Shown here piece after piece: positions 7,526-15,423 of a DNA stretch of 64,000 nt; within the stretch, counting starts at the first letter, position 1, and each line of letters starts with the position of its first letter. The DNA is from Mycobacterium sherrisii (GTDB taxonomy: Bacteria; Actinomycetota; Actinomycetes; Mycobacteriales; Mycobacteriaceae). Made by a program: the position numbers and the translations under genes. Location: assembly GCF_002102355.1 (NCBI RefSeq), contig NZ_LQPT01000077.1:1-64000 (forward strand), given 5' to 3'. Below the pieces are notes generated by a model. The model saw only the letters and a list, made by a program, of their open reading frames with translations, made no database searches and was not told the DNA's origin.

Positions 7526-8293
7526 GTGGAACCGGTATATGGGACGGTCATCTTCCTCGCGCGCACGATCTGGCGGCTTCAGGGGCTCAAGATCACCGTC
7601 TCGGGTGTGGAGCATTTGCCGGCCACCGGTGGCGCGGTCATCGCGATCAACCACACCGGCTACCTCGACTTCACCTTTGCCGGGCTGCCGGCCTACCAGC
7701 AGGGCCTCGGCCGCAAGGTGCGGTTCATGGCCAAGCAAGAGGTGTTCGACAGCAAGACCACCGGACCGCTGATGCGCAGCCTGCGGCACATCCCGGTGGA
7801 TCGGCAGGACGGCGCCGCCTCCTACGAAGCGGCGGTCAGAAACCTCAAGGACGGCGAACTCGTCGGCGTCTACCCCGAAGCCACCATCAGCCGCAGCTTC
7901 GAGATCAAGGAATGCAAGAGCGGCGCCGCACGCATGGCGGTGGAGGCGGGCGTGCCGATCATTCCGCACATCGTGTGGGGTGCCCAGCGGATCTGGACCA
8001 AGGGCCACCCCAAGAAGCTGATCCGGCCCAAGGTGCCGATCACCGTGCTCGTCGGCGAACCGATTGAGCCGACGCTGGAAGTGCCCGAACTGCGGGGCCT
8101 GCTGCACTCGCGCATGCAGCATCTGCTGGAACGAGCGCAAGAGCAGTACGGCCCGCACCCGGCCGGCGAGTTCTGGGTACCGCACCGGCTCGGCGGCGGG
8201 GCCCCGTCGTTGGCCGAGACCGCCCGGCTGGACGCCGAGGAAGCGGCCGCGCGGGCGGCCCGGCGCGCCCAAGCCGCGGGGGCGCCGGAGTAG
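7526..8293 (+). CDS. 1-acyl-sn-glycerol-3-phosphate acyltransferase family protein (Rv3816c-like)
   Basis: A 255-aa PlsC-type acyltransferase, first of three tandem paralogues. Motif I is NHTGYLDF (H-x4-D, with Tyr-Leu in place), motif II lies near GRKVRFMAK, and motif III is the conserved GVYPEATISRS stretch (usually FPEGTRS in PlsC). The family transfers acyl groups from acyl-CoA to lysophosphatidate or related acceptors at the inner membrane face; the acceptor here is unknown. The start is GTG 7526, which gives a length near the 259 aa of Rv3816c. The C-terminal 40 residues are Ala/Arg-rich and not conserved. The following gene starts 6 bp after its stop, so the three are likely one transcript. 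Confidence 0.88.
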   Translation: MEPVYGTVIFLARTIWRLQGLKITVSGVEHLPATGGAVIAINHTGYLDFTFAGLPAYQQGLGRKVRFMAKQEVFDSKTTGPLMRSLRHIPVDRQDGAASYEAAVRNLKDGELVGVYPEATISRSFEIKECKSGAARMAVEAGVPIIPHIVWGAQRIWTKGHPKKLIRPKVPITVLVGEPIEPTLEVPELRGLLHSRMQHLLERAQEQYGPHPAGEFWVPHRLGGGAPSLAETARLDAEEAAARAARRAQAAGAPE

Positions 8294-8299
8294 TCGCCG

Positions 8300-9049
8300 A
8301 TGGTGGAGCCGACCTACCGCACCCTCGAGATCCTGGCCCAGCTGGCGGTGTTGGCCACCGGAACCAAAATCACCTACGGCGGGATCGAGCACATCCCCGA
8401 ACGCGGTGGGGCGGTGGTCGCGATCAACCACACCAGCTACGTCGACTGGCTACCGGCCGGGTTGGCCATGCGCCGCCGCAACCGCCGGCTGCGGTTCATG
8501 ATCAAGGCCGAGATGCAGCAGGTGAAGGTGGTCAACTTCCTGATCAAGCGCACCGGCTCCATTCCGGTGAACCGCAAAGCCGGCGCCGGCGCCTACGCCG
8601 AGGCGGTCCGGCGGCTGCGCGCGGGCGAGCTCGTCGGCGTCTATCCGGAGGCCACCATCAGCCGCAGCTTCGAACTCAAGGAGTTCAAAAGCGGCGCCGC
8701 ACGCATGGCGCGCGAGGCCGAGGTGCCGATCATCCCGGTCATCGTCTGGGGCGCGCAGCGGATCTGGACCAAGGACCATCCGCGACGCCTGGGCCGCCGC
8801 AACGTCCCGATCACCGTGCTGGTCGGCCCGCCGGTGCGCGCCGATGACGACATCGCGCGCACCGATGACGCGCTGCGCGCAGCGATGACCGACCTGCTGC
8901 ACGCGGCCCAGCAGCACTACCCGCACCCCGCGGGACAATATTGGGTGCCGCATCGGCTGGGCGGCGGGGCGCCGACGTTGGCCGGGGCGGCTCGGATCGA
9001 GGCCGACGAGGCCGCGGCCAGGGCGGCAAACCGGGCACCGCGCCAGTAG
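8300..9049 (+). CDS. 1-acyl-sn-glycerol-3-phosphate acyltransferase family protein (Rv3815c-like)
   Basis: A 249-aa acyltransferase, second of three. The H-x4-D motif is NHTSYVDW and the third motif region reads GVYPEATISRSFELKEF, near identical to its neighbours. Substrate-facing residues between the motifs differ (RRRNRRLRFMIKAEMQQVKV), so the paralogues may use different acyl donors or acceptors. ATG 8300 is 6 bp downstream of the previous stop; the next gene is 23 bp downstream. A soluble or peripheral membrane enzyme; no clear transmembrane span. Confidence 0.88.
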   Translation: MVEPTYRTLEILAQLAVLATGTKITYGGIEHIPERGGAVVAINHTSYVDWLPAGLAMRRRNRRLRFMIKAEMQQVKVVNFLIKRTGSIPVNRKAGAGAYAEAVRRLRAGELVGVYPEATISRSFELKEFKSGAARMAREAEVPIIPVIVWGAQRIWTKDHPRRLGRRNVPITVLVGPPVRADDDIARTDDALRAAMTDLLHAAQQHYPHPAGQYWVPHRLGGGAPTLAGAARIEADEAAARAANRAPRQ

Positions 9050-9072
9050 CCTTAAGGGGCGAAGGAGAAGAC

Positions 9073-9858
9073 ATGGCAGAGCCGTTCTATCGGTTCGGGG
9101 AATTGGTCGTTCCCTCACTTGTCGCGATGAACGGGACGAAGTTCACGTTCCGCGGACTCGAGAACATTCCGCAGCGCGGTGGCGCACTGCTCGCGCAGAA
9201 CCACACCAGCTACCTGGACTGGCTGCCGCCGCTGTTCGCGGCGCGGGAGCGGGGCCGACGGATGTACTTCATGATCAAGGCCGAGATGGCCGACGTGAAA
9301 GCCGTCGACTACGTGATCAAGCACGCCCGGCTCATTCCGGTGGACCGCCGCAACGGACACGACGCGCTCAGCGTGGCGGTCCAGCGGTTGCGCGCCGGCG
9401 AGTTGATCGGGATGCATCCCGAGGCCACCATCAGCCGCAGTTTCGAGCTGCGGGAATTCAAGACCGGGGCCGCGCGGATGGCGCTGGAGGCCCAGGTGCC
9501 GATCGTTCCGGTGATCGTGTGGGGCGCCCACCGGATCTGGCCGAAGGATCATCCGAAGAAGGTGTTTCGCAACAAGGTGCCGATCACCGTCGCCGCGGGG
9601 AGGCCGATCCCGCCGCACGGCACGGTCGAGCAGCTCAACGTGACGCTGCGGCAGGCCATGAACACGCTGCTGTATCAGGTGCAGGAGGAGTATCCCCACC
9701 CCGAAGGTGAGTTCTGGGTGCCGCGACGGCTGGGCGGCAGCGCGCCGACCCGGGATGACTCGCAGGCGATCCGGCTGGCCGAACTGCAACAGCGGGTGCA
9801 GAAGTACGGAACCGACGGTGTGACCCGGCCCGGGCAGTCGCAAAGTGGACGGCATTGA
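9073..9858 (+). CDS. 1-acyl-sn-glycerol-3-phosphate acyltransferase family protein (Rv3814c-like)
   Basis: A 261-aa acyltransferase, third of the tandem set and equal in length to its M. tuberculosis counterpart. H-x4-D is NHTSYLDW and the third motif reads GMHPEATISRS. Start ATG 9073 follows a strong GAAGGAGAAG ribosome-binding site; the frame is open further upstream to 8941, but that stretch is the end of the previous gene in another frame. Clustered triplication with conservation of all catalytic motifs argues that each copy is active and has its own substrate. Confidence 0.88.
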   Translation: MAEPFYRFGELVVPSLVAMNGTKFTFRGLENIPQRGGALLAQNHTSYLDWLPPLFAARERGRRMYFMIKAEMADVKAVDYVIKHARLIPVDRRNGHDALSVAVQRLRAGELIGMHPEATISRSFELREFKTGAARMALEAQVPIVPVIVWGAHRIWPKDHPKKVFRNKVPITVAAGRPIPPHGTVEQLNVTLRQAMNTLLYQVQEEYPHPEGEFWVPRRLGGSAPTRDDSQAIRLAELQQRVQKYGTDGVTRPGQSQSGRH

Positions 9859-10908: not shown

Positions 10909-11550
10909 ATGGTGTCCGACGAAGAGCCGCCCAAGGGTGGCGAGCGCGCGGACGACAAGTCGCAGCCGTCCAGCGCCGGCGACGCGGCCGAGGTGGAAGA
11001 GCAACCGACGCAGCAGGACGACGACTCGGACGAGTTCGCCGCCGGCGGCAGCATGCAGTTTCAGGACGCGGAGACGACCAAGCCGCGCCCCCCGACCCCG
11101 GCCGAGGTGCGGGCGCGGGACAAGTACGCCAAGAAGCAGCAGGAGCTTGAACAGGCGCGTCTGGAAGCCGAGGAGAAACGCCGCCGCCAGCGCCGCGTCT
11201 TGATGGGCGCCGCGGCGGGGGTCGGAGTGGTCGGTTTGGTGGCCGGCCTTGGATATTGGATGTTTTCGTCGCCCACCGTCACCGCGCAATGCGTCCGGGA
11301 TGATCCGAGTGGTCAGCCGATCATCGTGCCGGACAGTTACTGCACCGGGCACACCGCGGGGCTCAACGGCTTTTTCTTCTTTGGCGGACACCAATACCGC
11401 TACTACTACGGCAGTTCCGGGACGATAGGGTCGCGGCCCACCGGCGGCAGCACCGTCGCGCCCAAGGGTGCCACCATCACCACGAAGTCCGGAACCACCA
11501 TTTCGCGCGGCGGGCTAGGCGGCTCATCGAGTAAGAGCAGCGGATCGTGA
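10909..11550 (+). CDS. YgiB/DUF1190-like single-span membrane protein of the polyamine-type cassette
   Basis: A 213-aa protein. Residues 1-95 are acidic, Gln/Glu/Asp-rich and predicted cytoplasmic. A coiled-coil-like charged stretch follows (KKQQELEQARLEAEEKRRRQ, about 85-105). One membrane helix is at about 108-126 (VLMGAAAGVGVVGLVAGLGYW). The outside part has two Cys (QCVRDD, DSYCTG), an aromatic run (QYRYYYG) and a Ser/Gly-rich tail with ISRGGLG. The order Cys pair, low-complexity part, terminal RGG-F/L-G motif recalls E. coli YgiB/YjfM (DUF1190), whose genes also sit next to a YgiC/YjfC ATP-grasp gene. ATG 10909 has AAGGA upstream. Its stop overlaps the next start (GTGA), so the two are coupled. 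It is possibly the acceptor or anchor for the ligase product; this is inference. Confidence 0.7.
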   Translation: MVSDEEPPKGGERADDKSQPSSAGDAAEVEEQPTQQDDDSDEFAAGGSMQFQDAETTKPRPPTPAEVRARDKYAKKQQELEQARLEAEEKRRRQRRVLMGAAAGVGVVGLVAGLGYWMFSSPTVTAQCVRDDPSGQPIIVPDSYCTGHTAGLNGFFFFGGHQYRYYYGSSGTIGSRPTGGSTVAPKGATITTKSGTTISRGGLGGSSSKSSGS

Positions 11551-12713
11551 AGCGTGCCAGGCACCAGCCGCGGCCGACGTGGCAGACGATCGTGGAATCG
11601 CAAGGGCTGGTGTACGGGACACCCGCGCGCGACGCCCGGGGCCGGGCCCGGCCATATTGGGACGAATCGGTTCACTACGTGTTCGACATGGACGAGATCC
11701 TGGCGCTGGAGGCCGATGTCGAACTGCTGCACTCGATGTGCCTGAACGCCGTCGAGCAGGTGGTGCTGATGGAACGGTTCGCGGATTTCGGTCTGCCGGA
11801 ATGGAGTTGGCAGGCCATCGCCGAGTCGTGGCGGCGCTCCGACCCGCATGTGTACGGCCGTTTCGACTTGCGTTACGACGGGCGCCGGCCGGCGGTGCTG
11901 CTCGAGTACAACGCCGATACGCCGACGACGCTCTTGGAAGCCGCTATCCTGCAATGGTATTGGCTCAAAGACGTCTTCCCCGCGGATGACCAGTGGAATT
12001 CCCTGCATGAGCAACTGGTGGACCGCTGGAAGCAGCTGCGAGATCTGCTGCCCAGCAACGAATTACACCTGAGCTGGTCCGGGGTGGAAGCCACCGGCGA
12101 GGATCAGATCACCACCACCTACATGCAGGAGACCGCGGCGGAGGCGGGTTTTGCAACGGTAGGGCTGATGATCGAGGACCTCGGCTGGGATTCCGCCCTG
12201 GAGCGTTTCGTCGACCTGGAAGAGGCCCCGATCGACGCGGTGTTCAAGCTCTACCCGTGGGAGTGGGTGCTCGACGACGAGTTCGGCAAACACGTGGTGT
12301 CCAGCCTGCCGCAGACGGCGTGGATCGAGCCGCTGTGGAAGACCCTGCTGTCGAACAAGGCGATTCTGGCGGTGCTGTGGGAAATGTATCCGGGACACCC
12401 AAACCTGTTGCCCGCCTACATCGATGATCCGCATGAGCTGACCGAGTACGTGCGCAAGCCCAAGCTCGGGCGGGAGGGGGCGAACATCACCGTCGTCGGC
12501 GCCGGTATGCAGGCCGCGACCGGTGGTGTCTACGGCGAGGAGGGCTACGTCTATCAGTTGCTGGACCCGTTGCCCGAATTCGACGACATGCGCCCCGCGC
12601 TGGGGGCCTGGATCGTCGGCGATTCGGCGGCCGGGCTCGGTATTCGCGAGACCGCGGGGCTGATCACCGACGACGGCGCGGCCTTTGTCCCACACCGGAT
12701 TCCCCGGAAGTGA
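11547..12713 (+). CDS. ATP-grasp ligase of the YgiC/YjfC (glutathionylspermidine-synthase-like) family
   Basis: A 388-aa carboxylate-amine ligase homologous to the synthetase half of glutathionylspermidine synthase. Family blocks seen: YWDESVHYVFDMDEI near the N-terminus, GRFDLRYDG then LLEYNADTPTTLLEAAILQW, FKLYPWEWVLDD, EPLWKTLLSNKAILAVLWE, and RKPKLGREGANITVVGAG with GEEGYVYQLL and GIRETAGLITDDGAAFVPH. The Lys/Arg/Glu of the ATP-grasp fold (RKPKLGREG) are intact. There is no CHAP amidase domain as in E. coli Gss, and length matches stand-alone YgiC/YjfC. The family joins an amine such as a polyamine to a carboxylate at the cost of ATP; here the amine could come from the neighbouring decarboxylase-spermidine synthase fusion. 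Start GTG 11547 overlaps the previous stop by 4 bp. Confidence 0.85.
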   Translation: MKRARHQPRPTWQTIVESQGLVYGTPARDARGRARPYWDESVHYVFDMDEILALEADVELLHSMCLNAVEQVVLMERFADFGLPEWSWQAIAESWRRSDPHVYGRFDLRYDGRRPAVLLEYNADTPTTLLEAAILQWYWLKDVFPADDQWNSLHEQLVDRWKQLRDLLPSNELHLSWSGVEATGEDQITTTYMQETAAEAGFATVGLMIEDLGWDSALERFVDLEEAPIDAVFKLYPWEWVLDDEFGKHVVSSLPQTAWIEPLWKTLLSNKAILAVLWEMYPGHPNLLPAYIDDPHELTEYVRKPKLGREGANITVVGAGMQAATGGVYGEEGYVYQLLDPLPEFDDMRPALGAWIVGDSAAGLGIRETAGLITDDGAAFVPHRIPRK

Positions 12714-12742
12714 ACTTCTGAGCAAGTGAACGGAGTTGATCG

Positions 12743-13216
12743 ATGACGACAACAACCATCGTGGCGCTGAATCCGAGTTATTGGGACCACGGCTACTGGT
12801 CCGTGCTCGGCCGGGGCGCCGGGGCCATCGTCTTGTACGCCGTGGTGGGCCTGATCCTGATGCTGGTCGGGTTCTACGCCATCGACCTGACCACGCCGGG
12901 CCCGCTGCGCCGGATGGTGAGCGCGGGCAAGCCGAACGCGATCGTCGTCTCGGCGGCGGGCATGGTAAGCATGGCGTTGATCGTGGTGCTGGCCATCTAC
13001 TCGTCGTCGGGAAAACTGCTCGAGGGCCTGGCGGGGTCGGCGGTGTTCGGCCTGGTCGGGATCGTCGCCCAGGTCGTGATGATGCGGATCGCGACGCTGG
13101 CGATCGGCATCGACATGGACGCGGTGTTCAACTCCGATGAATTCGAGTACGAGGCGCTCATGGTTGCCGCCGCGCAGGTCGCGCTGGGCATCGTGGTAGC
13201 GGTTGCAATTCTTTGA
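12743..13216 (+). CDS. DUF350 integral membrane protein (YjfL-like)
   Basis: A 157-aa protein with four predicted membrane helices (about 25-47, 66-85, 92-115, 135-156) arranged as two similar halves. The family signature GFYAIDLTTPGPLRRMV lies at the end of helix 1. DUF350 proteins are small polytopic membrane proteins of unknown mechanism that recur next to YgiC/YjfC ATP-grasp genes and, in mycobacteria, next to speE (Rv2600-Rv2601). The gene starts 29 bp after the ligase, with GGAG upstream, and ends 9 bp before the 86-aa gene, so it belongs to the same operon. It may provide the membrane platform or a channel for the modification system; this is inference. Confidence 0.85.
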   Translation: MTTTTIVALNPSYWDHGYWSVLGRGAGAIVLYAVVGLILMLVGFYAIDLTTPGPLRRMVSAGKPNAIVVSAAGMVSMALIVVLAIYSSSGKLLEGLAGSAVFGLVGIVAQVVMMRIATLAIGIDMDAVFNSDEFEYEALMVAAAQVALGIVVAVAIL

Positions 13217-13225
13217 GGTGCCAAC

Positions 13226-13486
13226 ATGTTTGAGGCGGGCGAGCAGCTGCGCGTTGCCGTTGACGTGATGACGGCGTGGACGACGGATCCAGACAACGTG
13301 GATTTTGCGATCGGCCGGGCCAAGGGGTACCTCGACGAGGGGCCCGACGGCTATCAGACCCTGCTGGCCGGGTTCGTCGGGCTCTCCGGGTGGCTGCTGA
13401 TCCGGCTGGCCAAGGCCGAGAGCGGCAAGGCCACTCGGGACGAGATGAGGACGATTCTGCAGGACATCGCGCGCAGGTCCATCTAG
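13226..13486 (+). CDS. 86-aa hypothetical protein of the polyamine-type cassette
   Basis: A short protein, MFEAGEQLRVAVDVMTAWTT at the start, with acidic and helical character and one weakly hydrophobic stretch (TLLAGFVGLSGWLLIRLAKA, about 46-65). GAGGTG precedes the ATG. It lies 9 bp after the DUF350 gene on the same strand and its stop overlaps the stop of the convergent fusion gene by 4 bp. No family recognised. Tight spacing makes it a real operon member rather than a chance frame. Confidence 0.6.
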   Translation: MFEAGEQLRVAVDVMTAWTTDPDNVDFAIGRAKGYLDEGPDGYQTLLAGFVGLSGWLLIRLAKAESGKATRDEMRTILQDIARRSI

Positions 13487-15423
13487 GTTTCGCGCAGGCT
13501 TTTCGGTGGCACGCAGGCCGCTCTCAGGGTGTCGGCGTCGATGCTGCGCGGCCGGTAGGGCAGCGCCGGCAAGCGCGCCACCATCACCGCCAGGGGATCG
13601 ATTTCGGCGTCGGTCAGCCCGCACAAAAACGACCATTCATGTTCGTCGCTGCCGAAATAGCTTACGGTTGCGAAGGATTGGCGAAAGCGCAGCCACGATT
13701 GGCGCAGCGACTCGTTGCGCCAGAGCGTCGGGCAGCCGGCCTGTGCGACCACGACGCGACCGATCGCACCGCAGCGCTGCAGAAATGCCGTGTCGTAGAG
13801 GCGGTTGTGCTGGGCGGGCTCGAGCCGCTCGTCGGGAAGGTCGATGACCACGATGTCGTAGGTCGCGCCGGCGCGCTCGACGAATTCCCAGCCGTCGCAA
13901 TAGTGCATTCTGATCGGGCCGAATCCGGCTTCGGCCCGGCACAATTCGTCGGCACTGTAGCCGTAGGGCAGGTGTCGTGCGCACAGCCGCACCGCGTCGC
14001 GGTCGATGTCGACGTGATCGACGTGGGTGGCGCCGGCCGCCACGGCGAGCTGGCTGATCACGCCCTCACCCGAGCCGATGACCAGGACCCGGGTCACCGT
14101 ACCGGCCAGCAGCAGCGCAGGAACCAGCAGCGCCTCGTGATACACGAGCTGGCTGAATTCGGTGCTCTGCCGTTCCCCGTCGCTGAACAGCGCGACACCC
14201 TGGTGGGTACGGCCGATCACCAGGTGCTGGAATCCGGTGTGCACGTCGCAGCTGACCTCGCTGATCCGCCAGCTTCGGGTCAGCCCCGGTGCCAGCGGCT
14301 CGACCACTTCCCGGTGCGGCGCGGCGGGCGTGTCGACGAAATATGTTGGCAATGCCGGAAACCCGTTGAACGACACGGAGGCATAGCTGAAGGTGTAGGC
14401 GCCGGTGTCCGCAATCTCGACTCGGTCGCCGGGGACCAGGGTGACGGGGAGGGGATAGCTGCGGTACAGCACGTCGTCGCCGTCGCAGGTCGGTCCCGCG
14501 ACGACCGCATCGGCGAATCGATCGCCGTCACGGTCGGTGCGGAGTCGGTACCGGATGTATTCGTTCTCGGTCTCGGCCAGGCCACCGTAGCGCCCGATGT
14601 CGAGGTATACCCACCGCCGGGCATCGGTGCCGGTGCGCACGGCCACCACCTGGCAGGTGATGGTTCCCGCCGCGGCCACCAGCAACCGGCCGGGCTCCAG
14701 CACGAGCCGGGGCGGACGGGCACCGAAATGCCGGGCCAGCGCGTCGGTGATGGTTGCCGCGATGGTGTCGAGATCCGGCGCGTCCTGCGCGTAGGAAACC
14801 GGGAAGCCGCCCCCGATGTTGAGCGTGTCGAGTCCGTCAATTGCGTCGAATATCTGTGCAGCGCTTTGTATTCCGAGGGCCCAGGCCGTGGGATCCAATT
14901 GTTGGGAGCCCACATGAAAGCAGACGCCTTCCGGCCGCAGTCCCAGTCGCGCCGCGTGCGTCAGCAGCTCCGCCGCGGCCTGCGGCGCGCAGCCGAACTT
15001 ATGCCCGAAGGGCGTGACCGACGCCGGAAAGTCCGCTGCGATGCGGCATTCCACGCCCGCACCCGGGGCGTGCTCGGCAATGGCGATCAAGCCCTGCTCG
15101 GTATCGAAGGCGAAGTGCCGGACCCCGCGCGCGTGTGCCCGGGCGATGTCGGTCGGCTTCTTGATGGTGTTGCCGAACGTCAGCCTCGCGCCGTCGATGC
15201 CTGCGGCGCCACACGTCTCGATCTCACCGACGGAGGCGACATCGAAAGCGCAGCCCTCGCCGGCGAGCAGTCGCAGGATCGGCTCGGACGGATTCGCCTT
15301 GACCGCATAGCGGATTTGCGCCCCCGGCAACGCGGCGCGCAGCGCGCGATAGTTCTGCCGTACCCGGCCGAGATCGAGGCTCAGGTACGGGGTCGCGGCG
15401 CTCCGATCGGGCACAGCTCGCAC
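13483..15423 (-). CDS. Bifunctional fusion: PLP ornithine/lysine-decarboxylase-type domain plus spermidine-synthase domain
   Basis: One 646-aa frame carrying two enzymes. Residues 1-380 are a fold-III PLP decarboxylase: Lys42 (YAVKANP) for the Schiff base, His170 in CFHVGSQQ, Gly204-206 (NIGGGFP), LEPGR at 242-246, the Cys313-Asp314 pair (GPTCDGDD) and Tyr343 (TGAYTF). The Cys-Asp pair and HVGSQ fit ornithine/lysine or carboxynorspermidine-type enzymes better than diaminopimelate decarboxylase. Residues 390-640 are a SpeE-type aminopropyltransferase: LFSDGERQS, YHEALLVPAL, VLVIGSGEGVISQ (aminopropyl-donor loop, usually GGGDGG), VDIDRDAVRL, YCDGWEF, and Asp528 in VVIDLPDE, where the catalytic Asp is expected. 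Likely role: decarboxylate a basic amino acid, then add aminopropyl from decarboxylated SAM. No SAM decarboxylase is in the window. It is convergent with the ATP-grasp operon. Start GTG 15423; GTG 15414 is an alternative. Confidence 0.86.
   Translation of the reverse strand: MRAVPDRSAATPYLSLDLGRVRQNYRALRAALPGAQIRYAVKANPSEPILRLLAGEGCAFDVASVGEIETCGAAGIDGARLTFGNTIKKPTDIARAHARGVRHFAFDTEQGLIAIAEHAPGAGVECRIAADFPASVTPFGHKFGCAPQAAAELLTHAARLGLRPEGVCFHVGSQQLDPTAWALGIQSAAQIFDAIDGLDTLNIGGGFPVSYAQDAPDLDTIAATITDALARHFGARPPRLVLEPGRLLVAAAGTITCQVVAVRTGTDARRWVYLDIGRYGGLAETENEYIRYRLRTDRDGDRFADAVVAGPTCDGDDVLYRSYPLPVTLVPGDRVEIADTGAYTFSYASVSFNGFPALPTYFVDTPAAPHREVVEPLAPGLTRSWRISEVSCDVHTGFQHLVIGRTHQGVALFSDGERQSTEFSQLVYHEALLVPALLLAGTVTRVLVIGSGEGVISQLAVAAGATHVDHVDIDRDAVRLCARHLPYGYSADELCRAEAGFGPIRMHYCDGWEFVERAGATYDIVVIDLPDERLEPAQHNRLYDTAFLQRCGAIGRVVVAQAGCPTLWRNESLRQSWLRFRQSFATVSYFGSDEHEWSFLCGLTDAEIDPLAVMVARLPALPYRPRSIDADTLRAACVPPKSLRET

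Follow-up and report, generated by a model that had tools for sequence, protein, structure and literature searches.

In Escherichia coli, the ygiBC and yjfIJKLMC gene groups place a gene of the YgiB/YjfM type directly before a gene for an ATP-grasp ligase (YgiC or YjfC), and the yjf group carries a DUF350 gene as well. Operons joining ATP-grasp, DUF350 and DUF1190 proteins, with variants that include an S-adenosylmethionine (AdoMet) decarboxylase, are described by Ravi et al. 2024 (PMC11237479), who cite Li et al. 2019 for the link. Here we describe a related cassette of Mycobacterium sherrisii, located at positions 10909 to 15423 of the window (the whole stretch analysed, positions 1 to 64,000 of contig NZ_LQPT01000077.1). 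In it, a decarboxylase fused to a spermidine synthase (SpeE) domain converges on genes for a YgiB-like protein, a ligase and a DUF350 protein.

The mycobacterial ligase is of the same family as its E. coli counterparts and shares residues with them, and in both organisms a gene of the YgiB type directly precedes that of the ligase. Three features set the locus apart: no amine-making enzyme is annotated in the E. coli stretches examined, YgiB and YjfM are DUF1190 proteins of which the mycobacterial protein has only the tail, and no PspA-family gene (YjfJ in the yjf group) occurs among the eight mycobacterial neighbours scanned. The groups described by Ravi et al. 2024 (PMC11237479) follow the same idea, bringing together a GspS-like ATP-grasp ligase, DUF350, a lipoprotein and polyamine genes. 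They differ in that the polyamine gene of the window is a fusion of an ornithine decarboxylase (ODC) with SpeE that lacks AdoMet decarboxylase, and in that PspA, CesT/Tir and band-7 are missing from the eight neighbours. Given such groups, the suggestion of an earlier, sequence-only reading of this DNA that the joining of all parts is not well described was overstated. What is new here is the excised AdoMet decarboxylase (SpeD): a search of the open-access literature, most subscription papers lying outside its scope, turned up neither an account of an ODC-SpeE fusion that lacks SpeD nor one of actinobacterial coupling to the ligase.

Fusions of SpeD to SpeE are known from Ca. Pelagibacter (PMC11107197), and human spermine synthase derives from such a fusion, its N-terminal domain going back to a class 1b AdoMet decarboxylase (PMC11999265). 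Nocardia and Mycolicibacterium relatives of the window's enzyme share this SpeD-SpeE order; in the window's clade, in contrast, SpeD has been removed and the SpeE domain carries ODC at the position it held. The decarboxylase resembles the bacterial lysine/ornithine decarboxylases SrLDC and VvLODC in having an alanine-racemase fold with active-site motifs in the N-terminal half but, unlike them, is fused to SpeE.

An open reading frame (ORF) check of the window confirmed the coordinates, strands, spacings and converging fusion of the sequence-only reading. Of the four plus-strand ORFs, the first two overlap by 4 bp, and gaps of 29 and 9 bp precede the third and the fourth; the 646-aa fusion ORF (15423-13483, minus strand) runs towards them, overlapping the 86-aa ORF by 4 bp. 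The features are as follows.

10909..11550, plus strand: YgiB-like single-span protein, 213 aa (24-row alignment, structure model)
11506..11547, plus strand: C-terminal tail RGGLG...SSGS of the YgiB-like protein (profile comparison, motif count)
11547..12713, plus strand: predicted ATP-grasp acid-amine ligase, GSP_synth family, YgiC/YjfC-like, 388 aa (Pfam, structure matches, alignment)
12743..13216, plus strand: DUF350 (YjfL family) membrane protein, 157 aa (Pfam)
13226..13486, plus strand: 86-aa ORF, lineage-restricted (no family match; locus comparison)
13483..15423, minus strand: fusion, 646 aa, of a pyridoxal phosphate (PLP) decarboxylase (alanine-racemase fold, like ornithine and lysine decarboxylases) with a spermidine-synthase-like domain (Pfam, alignments)
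14320..15423, minus strand: decarboxylase domain of the fusion, residues 1-368 (alignments)
13486..14316, minus strand: spermidine-synthase-like (aminopropyltransferase) domain of the fusion, residues 370-646 (alignments)
14296..14334, minus strand: fusion junction, where relatives have a SpeD domain of about 125 residues (alignments)

A fusion without its SpeD domain

The fusion matches Orn_Arg_deC_N/Orn_DAP_Arg_deC and Spermine_synth in Pfam. Its decarboxylase half, whose closest solved structure is the S. ruminantium lysine/ornithine decarboxylase, has the alanine-racemase fold, the PLP lysine and the HVGSQ, GGG, EPGR and CDG motifs; Glu288, matched by eye, presumably occupies the position of Asp332 in human ODC. 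The other half retains the SpeE fold and catalytic motifs, with YHEA, VDID and DLPDE invariant in all 34 fused rows of an alignment and GSGEG showing a single Ser-to-Ala change. Purifying selection is equal on the two halves. A degenerate spermidine-synthase half is contradicted by these motifs and by the equal selection. Assignment of the fusion as a carboxynorspermidine decarboxylase (NspC) was likewise rejected: the NCBIfam scan (E<=1) returned no NspC model, and the best relatives are lysine/ornithine and diaminopimelate decarboxylases. With the threshold at 90%, only two positions set the fused rows apart from all split relatives; with it at 85%, 20 positions over both halves set them apart from the ten mycobacterial split rows alone. 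Some change in the fusion may have followed the loss of SpeD.

In loci of Nocardia, Mycolicibacterium and Actinokineospora, the halves are separated by an AdoMet decarboxylase of about 125 residues, which in most cases forms one protein with the synthase. Other genomes of the order contributed eleven more loci; SpeD and SpeE occupy individual ORFs in nine of these and a common ORF in two (L129, L133). An intermediate arrangement is found in a Mycobacteriaceae metagenome contig (L035), where ODC, SpeD-SpeE and the ligase triple adjoin. Open frames of about 795 aa in family f14 suggested a triple ODC-SpeD-SpeE fusion; reading of loci gave separate ODC, SpeD and SpeE ORFs, and this candidate was discarded.

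The fusion is present in one open frame in 37 of 297 genomes of the genus (the window's included), with 69-78% identity to that of the window, and is interrupted in two more, by one stop in G045 and into pieces in G089. SpeD (PF02675) was detected in 9 of the 297 genomes and gave no match in 36 of the 37 fusion genomes, G110 being the exception. A dedicated SpeD profile (A2), whose three positive controls scored E 8.4e-63 or better, gave no match stronger than E 0.0138 in the 37 fusion genomes and none at E<=1 in the M. sherrisii genome (5.56 Mb in 128 contigs). PF02675 did not match there either in a search that was positive in 8 of 14 genomes; PF01536 also gave no match in this genome, a result made uninformative by the failure of every positive control. 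Across the order sample, SpeD was found in all 30 unfused genomes with both synthase domains and in neither of the two fused ones tested alongside.

Altogether, these comparisons indicate that SpeD was excised in the fusion clade and that ODC and SpeE were joined. A single loss cannot be taken as settled: the tree needs one change, branch support is 44/0, and there may have been one or more losses. The clade thus amounts to a natural deletion experiment, having lost AdoMet decarboxylase while keeping an aminopropyltransferase domain under selection. It follows that there must be an unknown donor, an unknown decarboxylase or a new use for the domain. The proposal of the sequence-only reading that the fusion makes an aminopropylated amine is not supported in that form: the catalytic motifs are in place, but the product lacks a known donor, because decarboxylated AdoMet is needed and no SpeD was found in the organism's own genome.

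Two SpeD homologues were noted in addition to those of the split relatives. The one of G110 mentioned above is divergent (45 bits to PF02675) and lies far from the cassette (L086 1961-2473; G110:C1, about 4.352 Mb); a 273-aa ORF directly follows, and the homologue could itself be some other enzyme of the pyruvoyl type. The second is part of a SpeD-SpeE fusion of another type (L087 1973-3265, G106:C16), in a genome that lacks a close ODC of the family studied here, with GGGEG and DMTDP identified by eye and a SpeD part 40% identical.

The search with the fusion yielded 260 relatives, the best 80 of which (79 distinct loci) were kept. The alignment of fused and split proteins has 84 rows (34 fused, 50 split). 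Left out were L032 and L111 (broken), L034 (undetermined bases), L084, L085, L088 and L090 (which duplicate the window or other rows), and L087 and L089 (loci without an ODC of the fusion's family). The tree was built from 50 of the 84 rows (all 34 fused and 16 of the 50 split). The VIA list is dominated by the decarboxylase half and holds one spermidine-synthase row.

The ligase and the conserved triple

The ligase matches GSP_synth (PF03738) over its full length in Pfam (E 1.8e-149). Its best solved relatives, aligned over most of its length, are YgiC (7uk8, E 7.4e-89) and YjfC (7uk6, E 4.2e-79), to which it is 42% and 40% identical, respectively; the structure search also returned glutathionylspermidine and trypanothione synthetases. 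The sequence-only reading had held that a lack of ATP-binding residues in the ATP-grasp family would refute its view of the cassette. On alignment with YgiC and YjfC the shared residues are intact, and positions identical in all three include R105, D107, E120, N122, D124, K265, K271, K304 and R367, which we take, after work on glutathionylspermidine (Gss) and trypanothione synthetases, to contact ATP/Mg and phosphate. Both E. coli enzymes are annotated as peptide--spermidine ligases. By sequence, the protein of the window belongs to the YgiC/YjfC acid-amine ligase family, and a peptide-polyamine ligase activity is predicted for it.

By tblastn, the YgiB-like protein, the ligase and DUF350 are encoded side by side in 54 of the 58 actinobacterial ligase loci read (window copies and repeats excluded). 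The triple is complete in 55 of the 58 if L127 is counted, whose YgiB-like match covers nothing but the tail; in the remaining loci, L099 stops before DUF350 and L136 and L137 have the ligase alone. The three proteins form a conserved triple, with the genes found together and not scattered among other genomes, as the sequence-only reading had allowed they might be. The DUF350 protein of the window matches PF03994 across the whole domain (E 6.1e-17). A second ligase copy, 66% identical, at L137 (G436:C1:8204745-8205881) has no recognisable YgiB-like or DUF350 neighbour.

The YgiB-like protein begins with a charged part holding a conserved PRPPT..E.RAR.K stretch (24-row alignment), followed by a single hydrophobic span (residues ~97-119), a short Cys-containing domain with YRYYYG and a Gly/Ser-rich tail. 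A fold search with its structure model, of mean predicted local distance difference test (pLDDT) score 66, gave no match at E<=0.001. The DUF1190 model PF06693, which recovers E. coli YgiB at 2.9e-55 and YjfM at 2.9e-17, matched neither the protein of the window (E<=1) nor two relatives (E<=10). In hhalign, only 38 C-terminal columns align with YgiB/YjfM (probability 26%, P 7e-4, with two sequences on the DUF1190 side). The tail itself is distinctive: RGG[FYLI]G occurs within the last 60 aa of 50 of 50 YgiB-like ORFs (some genes being reached twice) versus 1 of 4720 other ORFs, and the C-terminal residue is Gly or Ser at 48 of 48 YgiB-like loci versus 21% of other ORFs. By these comparisons, the tail is the sole part of the mycobacterial protein found to be shared with E. 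coli YgiB and YjfM. Thus, while the family labels of the sequence-only reading were upheld by Pfam for the ligase, DUF350 and the fusion, its YgiB/DUF1190 label holds at most for the tail. Since a basic stretch precedes the single span, the sequence suggests that the tail lies outside the membrane.

Co-occurrence of synthase and ligase

The ligase was detected in 83 of the 297 genus genomes. These comprise all 37 with the fusion, all six in which ODC and SpeE are split, G045, and 39 that have neither arrangement. Fusion and ligase lie on one contig in 33 of the 37, separated by 0.5-9.7 kb, and on different contigs in the other four. Considering the fusion-type loci (L001-L034), 27 of 34 include the ligase; the others are L013, L019, L020 and L027, which end less than 2 kb from the fusion, the broken L032, and L014 and L026, where 3.3 and 8 kb beyond the fusion contain no ligase. 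At split-type loci (L036-L079) the ligase is found in none of 44 available flanks, yet is present in all 37 of their genomes searched. A sample of 200 genomes of the order gave the ligase in 81 and both synthase domains (E<=1e-60) in 33, of which 29 have the ligase. In G356, from another family, a decarboxylase ORF lies 11 bp upstream of the YgiB-like (tail match), ligase and DUF350 genes (L127 4925-8221, G356:C45); SpeD and SpeE occur together on another contig of this genome (L138). These counts suggest that the association of synthase and ligase holds across families of the order, even where the genes are not neighbours.

The fusion is in pieces in M. tilburgii (G089; L032, L111), the triple was not found at the locus and G089 gave no ligase match; fusion and ligase parts appear to decay together.

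A candidate amine-conjugation system and its alternatives

On balance, and with modest confidence, we lean towards seeing the cassette as an amine-conjugation system of the YgiC type equipped with its own amine source. The sequences themselves establish the protein families, the conserved residues, the fusion, the lack of a recognisable SpeD, the co-occurrence and linkage, and the purifying selection; substrates, product, carboxylate partner and membrane role are those we infer as follows. The decarboxylase half would convert ornithine or lysine to a diamine, to which the spermidine-synthase half would add a three-carbon amine group from an AdoMet-type donor, whose source in this clade is unaccounted for with SpeD deleted. 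The ligase would activate a carboxylate with ATP and join the amine to it, and DUF350 and the YgiB-like protein would make up the place at the membrane where the product is retained or exerts its effect. The sequence-only reading had proposed a cassette of this kind for coupling an amine to a carboxylate, and the likeness of the ligase to its relatives, the co-occurrence and the linkage in G356 all argue for it. Because synthesis and ligase are phyletically coupled across families, the data suggest that the amine in these actinobacteria is made for conjugation and not as a bulk polycation.

Several observations weigh against this proposal. Neither the fusion nor a split synthase is present in 39 of the 83 ligase-bearing genus genomes, and in the order sample the synthase pair is absent at E<=1e-60 from 52 of the 81 genomes with the ligase; therefore, the ligase may work with another or an imported amine. 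The four order genomes with synthase and no ligase all belong to genus g38, and G117 and G106, in the genus, have SpeD-SpeE genes with neither a close ODC of the fusion's family nor the ligase. The co-occurrence counts come from related genomes and pairs, which are not independent. An extended amine is not assured, because no donor for the second step was identified. Finally, the tail of the YgiB-like protein as the ligase's own substrate is attractive yet topologically strained, because the two are predicted on opposite sides of the membrane, the tail outside and the ligase inside.

The ligase might instead serve to store or detoxify polyamines by making a small peptide-polyamine, which the membrane proteins would only sense or export. 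The peptide--spermidine annotation of YgiC and YjfC and the relatedness of glutathionylspermidine and trypanothione synthetases make this possible, if unlikely, while the complete triple in 55 of 58 loci points to a membrane-bound partner. It is rather doubtful that the spermidine-synthase half has ceased to be an aminopropyltransferase and survives in a structural or regulatory role, so that the cassette would use putrescine or cadaverine. Such a diamine-only cassette would fit the failure to find SpeD in 36 of 37 fusion genomes with PF02675, or in any of the 37 at better than E 0.0138 with the dedicated profile, the linkage of the decarboxylase alone to the triple in G356, and the 20 positions that differ from the ten mycobacterial split rows at 85%. 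It is hard to square with motifs that are invariant in 34 of 34 fused rows (YHEA, VDID and DLPDE; one Ser-to-Ala in GSGEG), with equal selection on the two halves and with a mere two positions that differ from all split relatives at 90%.

It is also quite unlikely that decarboxylated AdoMet is still made by an AdoMet decarboxylase encoded elsewhere in the genome, whose family is unknown or has diverged greatly: the conserved SpeE half requires a donor, and the 45-bit SpeD of the fusion genome G110 indicates that diverged forms occur in the genus, but the organism's own genome matched neither PF02675 nor, at E<=1, profile A2. Accidental adjacency of fusion and triple was already disfavoured and is very improbable. 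The genes are on opposite strands, several relatives have them up to 9.7 kb apart with intervening genes, and 8 kb past the fusion in L026 lack the ligase; against this stand co-occurrence in genomes without adjacency and the decarboxylase-triple linkage in another family.

Within the amine-conjugation proposal, a SpeD-independent route, by which one enzyme would make spermidine-type amines in the reverse of the customary order, is a long shot. Carboxyspermidine decarboxylase, a fold relative of the decarboxylase half, decarboxylates carboxyspermidine. The decarboxylase half would make the diamine, the synthase half would transfer the undecarboxylated 3-amino-3-carboxypropyl group directly from AdoMet to give carboxyspermidine, and the decarboxylase half would then remove the carboxyl. 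If so, loss of SpeD and fusion in one event would make chemical sense, with the product feeding the ligase.

The findings bear on amine use by mycobacteria and, through the phyletic coupling across several families of the order, link the making of polyamines to the YgiC-type ligases, which are little understood. In one paper M. smegmatis is called a polyamine auxotroph without detectable polyamines (PMC8503589), and in another de novo spermine synthesis is said to have been reported in Mycobacterium (PMC11841054).

The 86-aa protein, which the sequence-only reading had counted as a fourth plus-strand member of the cassette, found no family in Pfam or NCBIfam scans. Among the loci fetched, besides the window's own copies, its gene recurs only in L001 and M. 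tilburgii (L032 = L111, in two frames). Not being conserved across the loci compared, it was rejected as a cassette component and is probably outside the conserved system. That reading had also placed the cassette where PE_PGRS62 would be. There is indeed no room for a PE gene between the fusion and the 86-aa ORF in the window; replacement was rejected, since a PE-family gene (PF00934) lies between fusion and DUF350 in all three relatives scanned (L012, L024, L028) and so coexists with the cassette. By synteny, the PE gene of these relatives is presumably the PE_PGRS62 orthologue.

The nearest relatives of the fusion are mycobacterial, for example those of Mycobacterium sp. 1100029.7, M. triplex and M. 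montefiorense. The M. sherrisii genome has single PF01564, DUF350 and ligase matches, each within the cassette. The cassette is bordered on one flank by genes for a HAD hydrolase and three acyltransferases; the opposite flank encodes an amidase/LGFP protein and UDP-galactopyranose mutase. Scanned at E<=0.001, the eight neighbouring proteins (5.8-10.7 and 15.5-19.7 kb) matched acyltransferase, HAD hydrolase, Rieske/SCP2-like, amidase/LGFP, GLTT and UDP-galactopyranose mutase families, and none matched PspA, CesT/Tir, band-7 or DUF4247/DUF2617. The three acyltransferase genes lie in a row at 7526-9858 of the window (PF01553, E 3e-36 to 4e-34) and resemble tandem paralogues.

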